A stretch of 64,000 bases of DNA from Dolomitihabitans soli (lineage in GTDB: Bacteria; Actinomycetota; Actinomycetes; Streptosporangiales; Streptosporangiaceae): the NCBI RefSeq assembly GCF_022213955.1, contig NZ_JAKNTW010000013.1:1-64000 (forward strand), read 5' to 3'. Below are positions 10,932-21,335 of the stretch, piece after piece (position 1 is the stretch's first letter; every line of letters starts with the position of its first letter). Both the position numbers and the translations under genes were made by a program. The notes beneath the pieces are model-generated. The model did no database searches and had not been told where the DNA came from. It saw nothing but the letters and a program-made list of their open reading frames with translations.

Positions 10932-11008
10932 TGGTAGCGGGGGCAGGATTTGAACCTGCGACCTCTGGGTTATGAGCCCAACGAGCTACCGAACTGCTCT
11001 ACCCCGCG
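10932..11008 (-). tRNA. tRNA-Met(CAT), initiator (fMet), copy 1
   Basis: 77 bases including encoded CCA. Anticodon CAT sits in the loop of GGG-CTCATAA-CCC, whose three G-C pairs are the initiator hallmark. The 5' base C1 cannot pair with T72, also an initiator trait. The T-arm GCAGGTTCAAATCCTGC is intact. The first ten bases overlap the 3' end of the ArsR-rhodanese gene, whose TAG stop lies at tRNA positions 8-10. It differs from copy 2 (21259-21335) at only a few positions. Confidence 0.97.
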
Positions 11009-12536: not shown

Positions 12537-13157
12537 TCACTCGGAGCGCACGTCAAGACCCATCGCGGTGGCGATCACCACGGCCTGGAGGGGGTCGACG
12601 ATGGCTCCGCGCAACTCCACAGCGTGGGGGTCGAGCGCGTCGAGGTTGCTCCCGCGCAGGTCACAGCGGGTGAAGTCGACCTTGGTGAGTGAGGCCGCCG
12701 ACAGGTCGACCCGCTTGAGGGTGGCTTCCTGGAAGCGTGCGCCGGCGAGATCGGCCTCGCGCATCCTGACGTCGACGAAGGACGCGCCGTTCAGGTTGGC
12801 CCTCGGCAGCCCGACGAAGGACCAGTCGCCGCCCTCGACCTTCAGCAGGTCGAAGGTGCAGCCGTCGAATCTGCTGCCGACGAGCTTGCAGCCGGTGAAG
12901 GCCGCGTCGAAGAAGTCGCACCTGGTGAAGACGCAGTTCTCGAATGCGGCGTCGACGTGCGCGGACACGTTGAACCGGACGTGCCGGAAGACGCACTCAT
13001 GGAACCGCGCCCCCCGGTTCGTCACCTCCGTCATGTCCACGTTCACGAAGGCGACCCGGTCGTGACTCTGGCCCGACAGGTCGTCGCCGCCCCAGTCCTC
13101 GGAGTCGACGGTCGACCGGGGCTCGGGGTCGGGCACGCCGTACTTGCGATCAGCCAT
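12537..13157 (-). CDS. pentapeptide repeat protein
   Basis: 206 residues made largely of A(D/N)LXX-type pentapeptides (FENCVFTRCDFFDAAF, ANLNGASF, ADLAGARF, VDLSAASL, CDLRGSNL), forming a right-handed quadrilateral helix. The overall form resembles McbG/Qnr-like proteins that protect gyrase, but general pentapeptide proteins are common and function cannot be assigned. The ATG at 13157 has a good ribosome site (GAAGGTG). The gene is monocistronic and transcribed toward the MBL operon. Confidence 0.85.
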   Translation of the reverse strand: MADRKYGVPDPEPRSTVDSEDWGGDDLSGQSHDRVAFVNVDMTEVTNRGARFHECVFRHVRFNVSAHVDAAFENCVFTRCDFFDAAFTGCKLVGSRFDGCTFDLLKVEGGDWSFVGLPRANLNGASFVDVRMREADLAGARFQEATLKRVDLSAASLTKVDFTRCDLRGSNLDALDPHAVELRGAIVDPLQAVVIATAMGLDVRSE

Positions 13158-13276
13158 TCGTCGCACCTTCGGGTCAGGGGCCGGGAGGACTGCCACGCTA
13201 ACCGTTCCCCAAGGTCTTACCTTCATACGGTGATGGACCCGTAATCGAATGACTCCCCTGCGTCACAATCGGTCGC

Positions 13277-16104: not shown

Positions 16105-16740
16105 TCACATGGCGCCGACCATCCGGTCGATGAGCTGAGAACGGATCCGGCCCGGCACCTGCGGAGCAAACCGTTCGAGATAGGAGTCGAGATGGCCGGT
16201 GTGATCCCAGAGGAACGGGAGATCGAAGGGGAGCATCGCGCGAATCGCCAGCAACGGAATCGGGGAGCGTAACGGCCGGAACTTCTCGTTCCAGAGACCG
16301 GGCTCGGCACAGGTGGGATGGAACTGCCCGATCATCAGCCCGTCGGCGACATAGGCCTCCTTCATACCCCTCTGCAGATCGTCCAGCTCCGTGGAATCAC
16401 CGTGGTCGAGTCCGGGGAGCACCACGATGAAGGTCAGCAGTTCCCGGCTGGAGTCGGGCAGTTCGGCGGCCATCTCGTGAAAGCGCACCCGGAACGCGGA
16501 CAGCACCTCACCGATCCGCCCGATGTCCGCCACATCGTCCTGGACCGCCAGATAGAACAGGTCACGCCGTAACGAGGGGGCGCTGAACGGGCAGACGGGC
16601 CCGTTACGGCCCAGATCTGGATGGCTCGTGGTGAGAAACCGGCGGCTCCAGTCCAGGATCTCCCGCAGTTCCGGCAGACGAGGATGGTCGAAGCCCATGG
16701 TCACCTCGGCGGCGGACCACAGACGCGGTTCAGAAGTCAT
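16105..16740 (-). CDS. DUF6875-like protein, third gene of decarboxylase operon
   Basis: 211 residues, soluble, unknown function. Conserved-looking blocks are HPDLGRNGPVCPFSAPSLRRD, LLTFIVVLPGLDHG, FHPTCAEPGLWNEKF and RSPIPLLAIRAMLPFDLPFL. The VCPF block suggests the DUF6875 family, but that is from memory and uncertain. ATG at 16740 overlaps the last 11 bases of the acetyltransferase gene, so it is translationally coupled to it and shares its pathway with the PLP decarboxylase. Confidence 0.65.
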   Translation of the reverse strand: MTSEPRLWSAAEVTMGFDHPRLPELREILDWSRRFLTTSHPDLGRNGPVCPFSAPSLRRDLFYLAVQDDVADIGRIGEVLSAFRVRFHEMAAELPDSSRELLTFIVVLPGLDHGDSTELDDLQRGMKEAYVADGLMIGQFHPTCAEPGLWNEKFRPLRSPIPLLAIRAMLPFDLPFLWDHTGHLDSYLERFAPQVPGRIRSQLIDRMVGAM

Positions 16741-17329
16741 TCGGATCCCGCCACATCGGCCGCAGTCGGGGACCACCGGGAATCACGATCTCGGGCCCAT
16801 GAGGCTCGAACCCGAACTGACGCGACACCGCCTCCCCACCGGGAGAGCTGGCCTCCAGGTAGGCCGGAACGCCGTCACGGTCGCAGCCCGCCAGCACCTC
16901 TCGCATCGCCATCGACGCGAGGCCGGTGCGTTGCCGATGCGGGGCCACGGCGGCGAAGCCGAGGTAGAGGTGCCGGGGCGCGGCCGGATGGTGGGCCTCC
17001 TGAAGCCGGATGATGGTCATCAGCGCGTCGGCGTACTCCCCAGCCGCCGCGCGCAGCCGTACGGTGAAGTCCGCGCCGGGGTCCTTCGCGCCGGGCGGGG
17101 TCGACAGCACGACGATTTCCTGGTCGTCCGTGGTGAGCGCGCCGCCCTGAGCCAGCGCGAGATCGAGGAACACGCGGAAGAAACCGGGAAGGATCTGCCG
17201 TCGCCGATGGGGATCGGGGAAGGCCCAGACGGTTAACGCGTCGTCGTAGAACGACTCCGCGAGGAGCGCGGTCAAAGGGCCGGCATCGGCACGGGTCGCC
17301 TGTCTGAGGGTGATGACGGAACTGGACAA
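16730..17329 (-). CDS. GNAT family N-acetyltransferase
   Basis: 199 residues. The acetyl-CoA site is recognised in LYLGFAAVAPHRQRTGLASMAMREVL and the C-terminal strand in PAYLEASSPGGEAVSRQFGFEPHGPEIV. Its start lies 58 bases inside the decarboxylase gene, an unusually long overlap that implies tight coupling. The simplest reading is that it acetylates the amine produced by the decarboxylase; that is inference. Confidence 0.85.
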   Translation of the reverse strand: MSSSVITLRQATRADAGPLTALLAESFYDDALTVWAFPDPHRRRQILPGFFRVFLDLALAQGGALTTDDQEIVVLSTPPGAKDPGADFTVRLRAAAGEYADALMTIIRLQEAHHPAAPRHLYLGFAAVAPHRQRTGLASMAMREVLAGCDRDGVPAYLEASSPGGEAVSRQFGFEPHGPEIVIPGGPRLRPMWRDPNDF

Positions 17330-18684
17330 GGTTTACTCCTTCCGCCGGCAAGCTCCTCAAGACGGTTGTGGAGGGGCTCGAGATAATTGCCGGACTCGGG
17401 TTTGATCAGGACACTGCGAAGAATGCGAGCGGATCTGGCGTCTCCCATCAGCCGCGGATGACGCCCGAGGAACGCGCGGTCGTCCACTCGCAACGCGCTG
17501 ACGTACACGGGGTCGGCACTGGTCATGCCCTCGTTCAGCACTCGGGCGGTCGCGGCGTCGATACCGGTCAACGACGGCTCGGACGGGAAGTAGGTGACGA
17601 TGTCGAGTTCCGGCGGCTGGAACAGCGTCAGGTGGCGGGAGGTCCGCAGCAACACGGCCCAGCGGCGCGCCGCCTGCAGACCGGGCAGCAGGACGCTGCC
17701 GAGCCCGTCCGGCGTCGCCGGAAGCATTCGGAGGGTGAGCCAGAGCGCCGCCGCCGCCGCCCCGGAACGTGAGCACTCCAGGCTGATCTCACCGAGGTGC
17801 AGATCGCTGGCGGTGAAGTAGGTGTACGGCGAGTCGTGCAGGTAGTGCCGGGCCACCCCCGGATCGGGGAACAACACCGCGCCGCAGCCGTACGGCTGGA
17901 GCCCGTGCTTGTGGGGATCGACCACGACCGAATCGCAGGACGCGATCGCCTTCCACGGGCGCGGATCGAAGAGACCGTGGTCGGCCAGCAGGGTGAAGAA
18001 TCCGCCGTAGGCGGCGTCGACGTGCAGGCGCACGCCGTACCGTTCCTTCAGCGCCAGGGCTTCGTGGATCGGATCGACCGCGCCCGTCCCCGTCGTGCCC
18101 GCGGTGAGCACGACGGTGCCGATGCGCTCGGTGCGGAGCAGGGTCTCCAGCGCGTCGAGGTCCATCCTGCCCTGCAGGTCGACCGGCACGCTGTGCCCCT
18201 GCACGCCGAGCACGCGGCACATTCGGGCGTGGGTGAAATGGCTGTCCGCGCTGTAGGCGATTCCCGCGCCCGGATGGCTTTCACGGGCCACGAACAGGGC
18301 CTCCAGATTGCCCATCGTCCCGCTGGTCGTGAGATGTCCGAGGTGGTCGGGGAAACCGAACATGCCCGCGAGTTGGGCGATCACCTCCCGTTCCATGTCG
18401 GTCGTCGCCGGGCCGCCCTCGCGGGCGTGGTTGTTGGGGTTCACGAGCATCGCGGCGAGATAGCCGACGACCGCCACCGGGTGCGGCGGTTTCACCATCT
18501 GCCCCACATAGCGCGGGTGGAAGAACGGATAGTTGTCCTGGAGTCGCCTGGTGAAATCGGCGAAGGCCACGCCGAACCGCTCGTCGTCGACGTGATTGAC
18601 CGGATGAGAGGTGAACGGGCCGAATCCGTCGCGCCATTCGTCCACCGCCTCGACCGCACGGCCCAGCCAGTACTGGAGATCCAT
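17272..18684 (-). CDS. group II PLP-dependent amino acid decarboxylase
   Basis: 470 residues of the glutamate/aromatic-amino-acid decarboxylase family. The catalytic lysine lies in VVDPHKHGLQPYGCG. Other motifs are TSGTMGNLEAL for the phosphate pocket and HVDAAYGGFF with the Asp that contacts the pyridine nitrogen. It removes CO2 from an L-amino acid to give an amine; the family includes Glu, Tyr, Val and diaminobutyrate decarboxylases, and I cannot tell which substrate applies. The ATG at 18684 leads a three-gene operon with GNAT and DUF6875-like genes that looks like a small metabolite pathway. Confidence 0.88.
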   Translation of the reverse strand: MDLQYWLGRAVEAVDEWRDGFGPFTSHPVNHVDDERFGVAFADFTRRLQDNYPFFHPRYVGQMVKPPHPVAVVGYLAAMLVNPNNHAREGGPATTDMEREVIAQLAGMFGFPDHLGHLTTSGTMGNLEALFVARESHPGAGIAYSADSHFTHARMCRVLGVQGHSVPVDLQGRMDLDALETLLRTERIGTVVLTAGTTGTGAVDPIHEALALKERYGVRLHVDAAYGGFFTLLADHGLFDPRPWKAIASCDSVVVDPHKHGLQPYGCGAVLFPDPGVARHYLHDSPYTYFTASDLHLGEISLECSRSGAAAAALWLTLRMLPATPDGLGSVLLPGLQAARRWAVLLRTSRHLTLFQPPELDIVTYFPSEPSLTGIDAATARVLNEGMTSADPVYVSALRVDDRAFLGRHPRLMGDARSARILRSVLIKPESGNYLEPLHNRLEELAGGRSKPCPVPSSPSDRRPVPMPAL

Positions 18685-21258: not shown

Positions 21259-21335
21259 TGGTAGCGGGGGCAGGATTTGAACCTGCGACCTCTGGGTTAT
21301 GAGCCCAGCGAGCTACCGAACTGCTCCACCCCGCG
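21259..21335 (-). tRNA. tRNA-Met(CAT), initiator (fMet), copy 2
   Basis: 77 bases with encoded CCA, anticodon CAT in GGG-CTCATAA-CCC, unpaired C1, and T-arm identical to copy 1. Differences from copy 1 are confined to a few positions in the D-arm region and anticodon stem (for example CGCTGGG in place of CGTTGGG). Confidence 0.97.

Follow-up and report, generated by a model that had tools for sequence, protein, structure and literature searches.

The window studied here, i.e. the whole stretch of 64,000 nucleotides analysed from Dolomitihabitans soli (contig NZ_JAKNTW010000013.1, forward strand), to which all coordinates refer, carries three open reading frames (ORFs) on the minus strand that run from 18684 to 16105 and encode a decarboxylase, a GNAT protein and a DUF6875 protein, in that order. 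A preliminary description had placed a three-ORF operon at 16105-18684, with overlaps of 58 and 11 bases, and the ORF coordinates bear this out. The features of the operon are as follows:

17272..18684, minus strand: group II pyridoxal phosphate (PLP)-dependent amino acid decarboxylase, 470 amino acids, PF00282
17336..17343, minus strand: ribosome binding site GGAAGGAG of the GNAT gene, six bases upstream of its TTG (direct sequence reading)
17272..17329, minus strand: decarboxylase/GNAT overlap, 58 bases (ORF coordinates)
16730..17329, minus strand: GNAT N-acyltransferase, puromycin N-acetyltransferase-like, 199 amino acids, TTG start within the decarboxylase gene
16730..16740, minus strand: GNAT/DUF6875 overlap, 11 bases (ORF coordinates)
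16105..16740, minus strand: DUF6875 protein, probable heme-dependent tryptophan hydroxylase, 211 amino acids, PF21780

The 58-base overlap is plausible since a good ribosome binding site precedes the TTG start of the GNAT gene. The overlap is due to a C-terminal extension of the window decarboxylase, about 20 residues long, for which the other decarboxylases aligned have no counterpart, and is thus peculiar to the window copy; in other genomes the same gene junctions are mostly either 4-base overlaps or short gaps.

The family labels given earlier to the three proteins were upheld, two of them by Pfam (PF00282 at 87.7 bits, cut-off 27, for the decarboxylase; PF21780, i.e. DUF6875, at 202.1 bits, cut-off 24.5, for the third protein). 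The GNAT protein scored 20.0 bits against PF00583 (Acetyltransf_1), just below the cut-off of 20.7, and was therefore checked by fold. Its structure model has a confident GNAT fold (pLDDT 89.2) and gave 131 PDB matches at E <= 0.001 with Foldseek, the best being puromycin N-acetyltransferase 7k09 (E 5.7e-15, TM 0.84/0.86), also matched by sequence using phmmer (E 2.3e-11); dopamine, serotonin and arylalkylamine N-acetyltransferases are found, among others, in the later matches. Puromycin N-acetyltransferase is a resistance enzyme, whereas the window protein, about 29 % identical to it, sits in a biosynthetic-type operon.

The operon is a conserved module and not a chance arrangement, as the same gene order and tight spacing are seen at 22 loci where all three genes are contiguous, i.e. 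the window, genome G134 (within the same order), six plasmids, two Kibdelosporangium, genomes G443, G515 and G555, and nine loci from the Streptomyces sample. Three further loci are cut by contig ends, and the operon counts may include the same strain twice. A DUF6875 search of genomes of the class returned a match at 1e-10 or better in 20 of 394; own genome aside, the matches at 53-58 % identity (G443, G515 and G555) are adjoined by GNAT and decarboxylase genes in all three cases. Within Streptomyces, DUF6875 is present in 55 of 392 genomes, and 30 loci were examined out of the larger match set. Eleven of these are operon-type (51-57 % identity): a GNAT gene accompanies all 11 and a decarboxylase gene all nine uncut loci, the other two being cut by contig ends. 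None of the remaining 19 loci has a GNAT or a decarboxylase gene (Fisher's test, p about 2e-8 and 1e-7, without correction for phylogeny). Eight plasmid records encode a decarboxylase at 60-80 % identity, and six of them, all Streptomyces plasmids, carry the three genes in a row.

Rare co-occurrence of the three families had been named at the outset as the observation that would count against a shared function. At the family level it is indeed rare: among 80 decarboxylase loci kept of many more matches, only Kibdelosporangium philippinense and K. banguiense have both partners, Streptomyces lushanensis has the GNAT gene followed by the contig end, and the other 77 have neither partner. At the subfamily level the three genes always occur together, contig permitting. 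Phylogenetic trees agree with this co-inheritance. In a tree of 98 decarboxylases, built before the Streptomyces sample and after duplicates and matches shorter than about 380 residues had been dropped, the 12 operon sequences form one clade (SH-aLRT 96) with the window beside G134; likewise, all 11 operon sequences group in one clade (100/99) of a tree of 58 DUF6875 proteins. Finally, Streptomyces G837 (locus L274, 7878-9884) encodes a decarboxylase-GNAT fusion of 668 amino acids, followed by an overlapping DUF6875 gene; no other observation indicates so strongly that the two reactions, decarboxylation and acylation, are consecutive. The families are common alone, GNAT relatives being present in 102 of 296 genomes, and this together with the family-level counts would suit three genes that are mere neighbours without a shared pathway. 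We regard that reading as very improbable and dropped it, since it is contradicted by the exceptionless Streptomyces co-occurrence, the matching clades and the fused protein. The same evidence supports the proposal of the preliminary description that a single pathway leads from amino acid to amine to N-acyl amine.

Third-position G+C is 0.80-0.85 in the operon genes and 0.80-0.95 in nine tested neighbours, seven of which are at 0.88 or more except a hydrolase at 0.85. The operon has three in-frame TTA codons within 16105-17329 (one in the GNAT gene and two in the DUF6875 gene); the nine neighbours have none. The somewhat lower third-position G+C, the TTA codons and the patchy distribution suggest that the operon was acquired horizontally. 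A control of bldA type is possible for the two TTA-containing genes. We also considered whether the two tRNA-Met genes at 10932-11008 and 21259-21335 (75 of 77 bases alike) delimit a mobile island, and found no support for this, the flanks having no longer repeat. A pentapeptide repeat protein resembling MfpA/Qnr (76.7 bits, cut-off 360) is encoded at 12537-13226. In two other genomes (G690 contig C1 and G757 contig C1), an operon-type DUF6875 gene occurs twice, near both ends and in opposite directions, as if in terminal inverted repeats.

The available portion of PMC13307353 reports that DUF6875 proteins bind heme and act in the oxidation of L-tryptophan, some of them as C-7 hydroxylases, citing a bioRxiv preprint about the 'cytochrome P422' family; deletion of one member, zigI, abolishes a methoxylated product. 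These enzymes belong to the same Pfam family as the window protein, ZigI being known here by its description only; ZigI-like loci were sought by context in eight regions and none was recognised. On the strength of that report, as far as the available text goes, the first step of the pathway, hydroxylation of the amino acid, most likely falls to the product of the third gene. The earlier assignment of the third gene to a subsequent, unknown step is thus probably wrong both in order and in being unknown. ResE of the RES-701 lasso peptide cluster, a protein of 209 amino acids with no known domain in 2020, was proposed as a C-7 hydroxylase of a tryptophan residue in the accessible part of PMC7280977; its size and chemistry suit DUF6875, a likeness by description.

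Nine residues (Arg45, Gly47, Cys50, Pro51, Met136, Asn151, Arg167, Asp173 and Phe176) are each found in 58 of 58 DUF6875 sequences, the window protein included. A profile comparison with 28 YqcI/YcgG proteins aligned Cys50 and its neighbouring segment with the conserved cysteine of that family of heme-thiolate hydroxylases, whose characterised member AglA has Cys44 as heme ligand in the consulted part of PMC12866846. The hhalign values were 40.6 and 32.3 in the two directions, with single-pair E-values; in the 32.3 direction, 100 column shuffles gave at most 20.2, and the reversed alignment gave 25.5. As the window protein did not match the Pfam family PF08892 (YqcI/YcgG) up to an E-value of 10, DUF6875 is described here as resembling YqcI/YcgG and not as a member, and it differs also in that the chemistry known from AglA is hydroxylation of a guanidine nitrogen.

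This remote likeness bears on an alternative in which the DUF6875 protein would come last or would act on nitrogen: either the amine or the N-acyl amine would be oxidised, for instance by N-hydroxylation, to a hydroxylamine or hydroxamate, or the ring would be hydroxylated after acylation. AglA's action on nitrogen (PMC12866846, in the text available) is in keeping with it, as are the expectation that ZigI acts on processed indole rather than on free tryptophan (PMC13307353, same portion) and the last place of the gene in the operon. However, gene order in an operon does not fix reaction order, and the published work on DUF6875, to the extent that it is available here, concerns tryptophan oxidation, including C-7 hydroxylation. 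We consider this alternative unlikely.

Genomic context links other DUF6875 proteins to tryptophan as well. In 11 of the 19 non-operon Streptomyces loci, a gene related to tryptophan 2,3-dioxygenase or kynureninase lies no more than 1.5 kb away; the two reference genes were confirmed by Pfam and NCBIfam. At such Streptomyces loci (L261-L269, L271, L273, L238 and L240), the DUF6875 gene lies beside tryptophan 2,3-dioxygenase, kynureninase and esterase genes, and one reading of such loci is that 7-hydroxytryptophan would be converted into 3-hydroxykynurenine. This proximity could also mean that DUF6875 itself opens the indole ring, the decarboxylase and GNAT protein then acting on kynurenine-type acids to give N-acetylkynuramine; most such loci already have a dioxygenase relative, though, which suggests that DUF6875 is not the ring opener, and none of the genes recognised around the window operon encodes a dioxygenase. 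Ring opening therefore appears quite improbable.

Further arrangements of DUF6875 were observed. At L240 (9529-11259), it forms the C-terminal part of a fusion with a polyprenyl synthase, with a kynureninase gene nearby. On a Streptomyces plasmid (L166, 8778-13371), it overlaps a histidine-decarboxylase-like gene, and an ATP-grasp and a trpA gene lie nearby. Rhizobium plasmid records matching DUF6875 number 42 (e.g. L165, 6869-14268), and the copy on p42d of R. etli is near nodD2 and nodD3. In peptide synthetase clusters of the window's family (L184, 5706-11871; also L173, L175, L177, L182 and L183), a DUF6875 gene stands beside that of a flavin monooxygenase-like protein, which was scanned for L184 only (best match VioC, 153.7 bits, cut-off 760).

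The decarboxylase carries an invariant DPHK motif (D256, P257, H258 and K259; 14 of 14 aligned decarboxylases), in which we take K259 to be the PLP lysine, as in a DxHK motif. Its substrate is probably an aromatic (hydroxylated) amino acid, judging from its relatives: aromatic amino acid and tyrosine decarboxylases are among the chains of solved structure closest to it in sequence. These relatives would also suit an alternative in which the same three steps act on tyrosine, 3,4-dihydroxyphenylalanine (DOPA) or another aromatic amino acid and yield an acetylated tyramine- or dopamine-like amine. Along the same line, decarboxylase relatives at 65-68 % identity lie in homoprotocatechuate-type clusters with gamma-glutamyl-amine genes at four loci (S. 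lunaelactis, K. banguiense, S. swartbergensis and Nonomuraea soli), beside genes resembling HpaE, HpaD and HpaG (in S. lunaelactis, whose genes were scored against NCBIfam, all scores are below the curated cut-offs), a setting that suits the breakdown of tyramine or dopamine. On the other hand, His280 is found in 12 of 12 operon decarboxylases and in 0 of 37 relatives, which mostly have Phe. Such operon-specific fixed residues, of which His280 is the sharpest of several, suggest a changed substrate without identifying which. The neighbours of DUF6875 elsewhere are tryptophan-pathway genes and the activity published for the family, in the portion seen, is on L-tryptophan; overall, we doubt that tyrosine or DOPA is the starting point.

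A larger conserved cluster surrounds the module in both Kibdelosporangium and in several Streptomyces. The proteins encoded there are a multicopper oxidase, two DUF1772/anthrone-oxygenase-like proteins, TrpD-, TrpF-, TrpC- and TrpA-like proteins, a RedW-like prolyl-carrier dehydrogenase (362 bits, cut-off 650), an adenylating enzyme, a carrier protein, an ectoine-synthase-like cupin and ketosynthases; this list is pooled, and individual loci may lack some genes. The cluster (L167, 14628-24656; also L049, L047, L170, L076, L084 and L274) looks like a second tryptophan-type pathway, and no matching description was found in the literature on trpDFCA-like neighbouring clusters.

Taken together, we favour, with modest confidence, a route in which the three predicted enzymes convert tryptophan via hydroxytryptophan and hydroxytryptamine into N-acetyl-hydroxytryptamine. 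In the first step, the DUF6875 protein, a small enzyme whose heme is probably held via the Cys50 thiolate, would hydroxylate the indole ring of L-tryptophan, possibly at C-7 as reported for its relatives. The PLP decarboxylase, to judge from its family and context, would then release CO2 to give hydroxytryptamine, and the puromycin-acetyltransferase-like GNAT protein would acylate the amine, most likely from acetyl-CoA. In the larger clusters, the multicopper oxidase could further oxidise the hydroxyindole.

Several observations weigh against this tryptophan route. The decarboxylase scores far under every NCBIfam equivalog cut-off (122.7 for TIGR03812, tyrosine decarboxylase MfnA, cut-off 299.4; 111.2 for TIGR03811, enterococcal tyrosine decarboxylase, cut-off 905.3), and its wider contexts may point to amines of tyrosine/DOPA type as much as to tryptophan. 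The operon DUF6875 proteins form a clade of their own and are less than about 45 % identical to the other subfamilies, so their chemistry may differ. The DUF6875 structure model, built from three sequences, is poor (mean pLDDT 56) and was for this reason kept out of the fold search. Finally, for two members of the larger cluster, the trpC-like gene and the multicopper oxidase, no close counterpart was found in the window genome, where the search returned only a trpC match at 35 % and two multicopper oxidases that are about 40 % identical and belong to another subfamily; the genes flanking the operon are also of other kinds than those of the larger cluster. We therefore took the window operon as freestanding, and the three genes would appear able to stand alone.

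The animal melatonin route comprises tryptophan hydroxylase, aromatic amino acid decarboxylase and AANAT, i.e. the same order of three reactions if the route favoured here is right. The DUF6875 hydroxylase family is presumably unrelated to the animal tryptophan hydroxylase. In bacteria, the closest precedent is physostigmine biosynthesis in Streptomyces, where, in the available part of PMC8403405, PsmH and PsmF convert 5-hydroxytryptophan via serotonin into N-acetylserotonin. This decarboxylase and N-acetyltransferase pair resembles that of the window operon, the likeness being one of described reactions. According to the same part of PMC8403405, the physostigmine cluster has no tryptophan hydroxylase gene and the hydroxylase of that route was not identified, whereas the window operon includes a candidate of heme type. 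No description of the three-gene module was found in the literature on DUF6875, N-acetylserotonin in Streptomyces, physostigmine or 7-hydroxytryptophan; the P422 preprint, outside this comparison, may contain it. The parts thus belong to known families, and their combination was not found described, that preprint excepted.

More broadly, and as a tentative view only, the module could be a compact, horizontally mobile three-gene route from tryptophan to N-acetyl-hydroxytryptamine, with a thiolate-heme hydroxylase unrelated to that of animals. Alone, it would make a small signalling or protective indole; elsewhere, it would be a plug-in cassette in a cluster whose own TrpD/F/C/A-like set supplies a dedicated indole. 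As the hydroxylase of the physostigmine route was not identified (PMC8403405), a heme-type tryptophan hydroxylase travelling with a decarboxylase and an acetyltransferase would be directly testable and useful for making hydroxytryptamines. For the many actinobacteria whose genes are annotated as 'hypothetical protein' or DUF6875, this reading would say what those genes do and where in a pathway they act; it also predicts that bacteria have a melatonin-like route whose hydroxylase is not homologous to that of animals.

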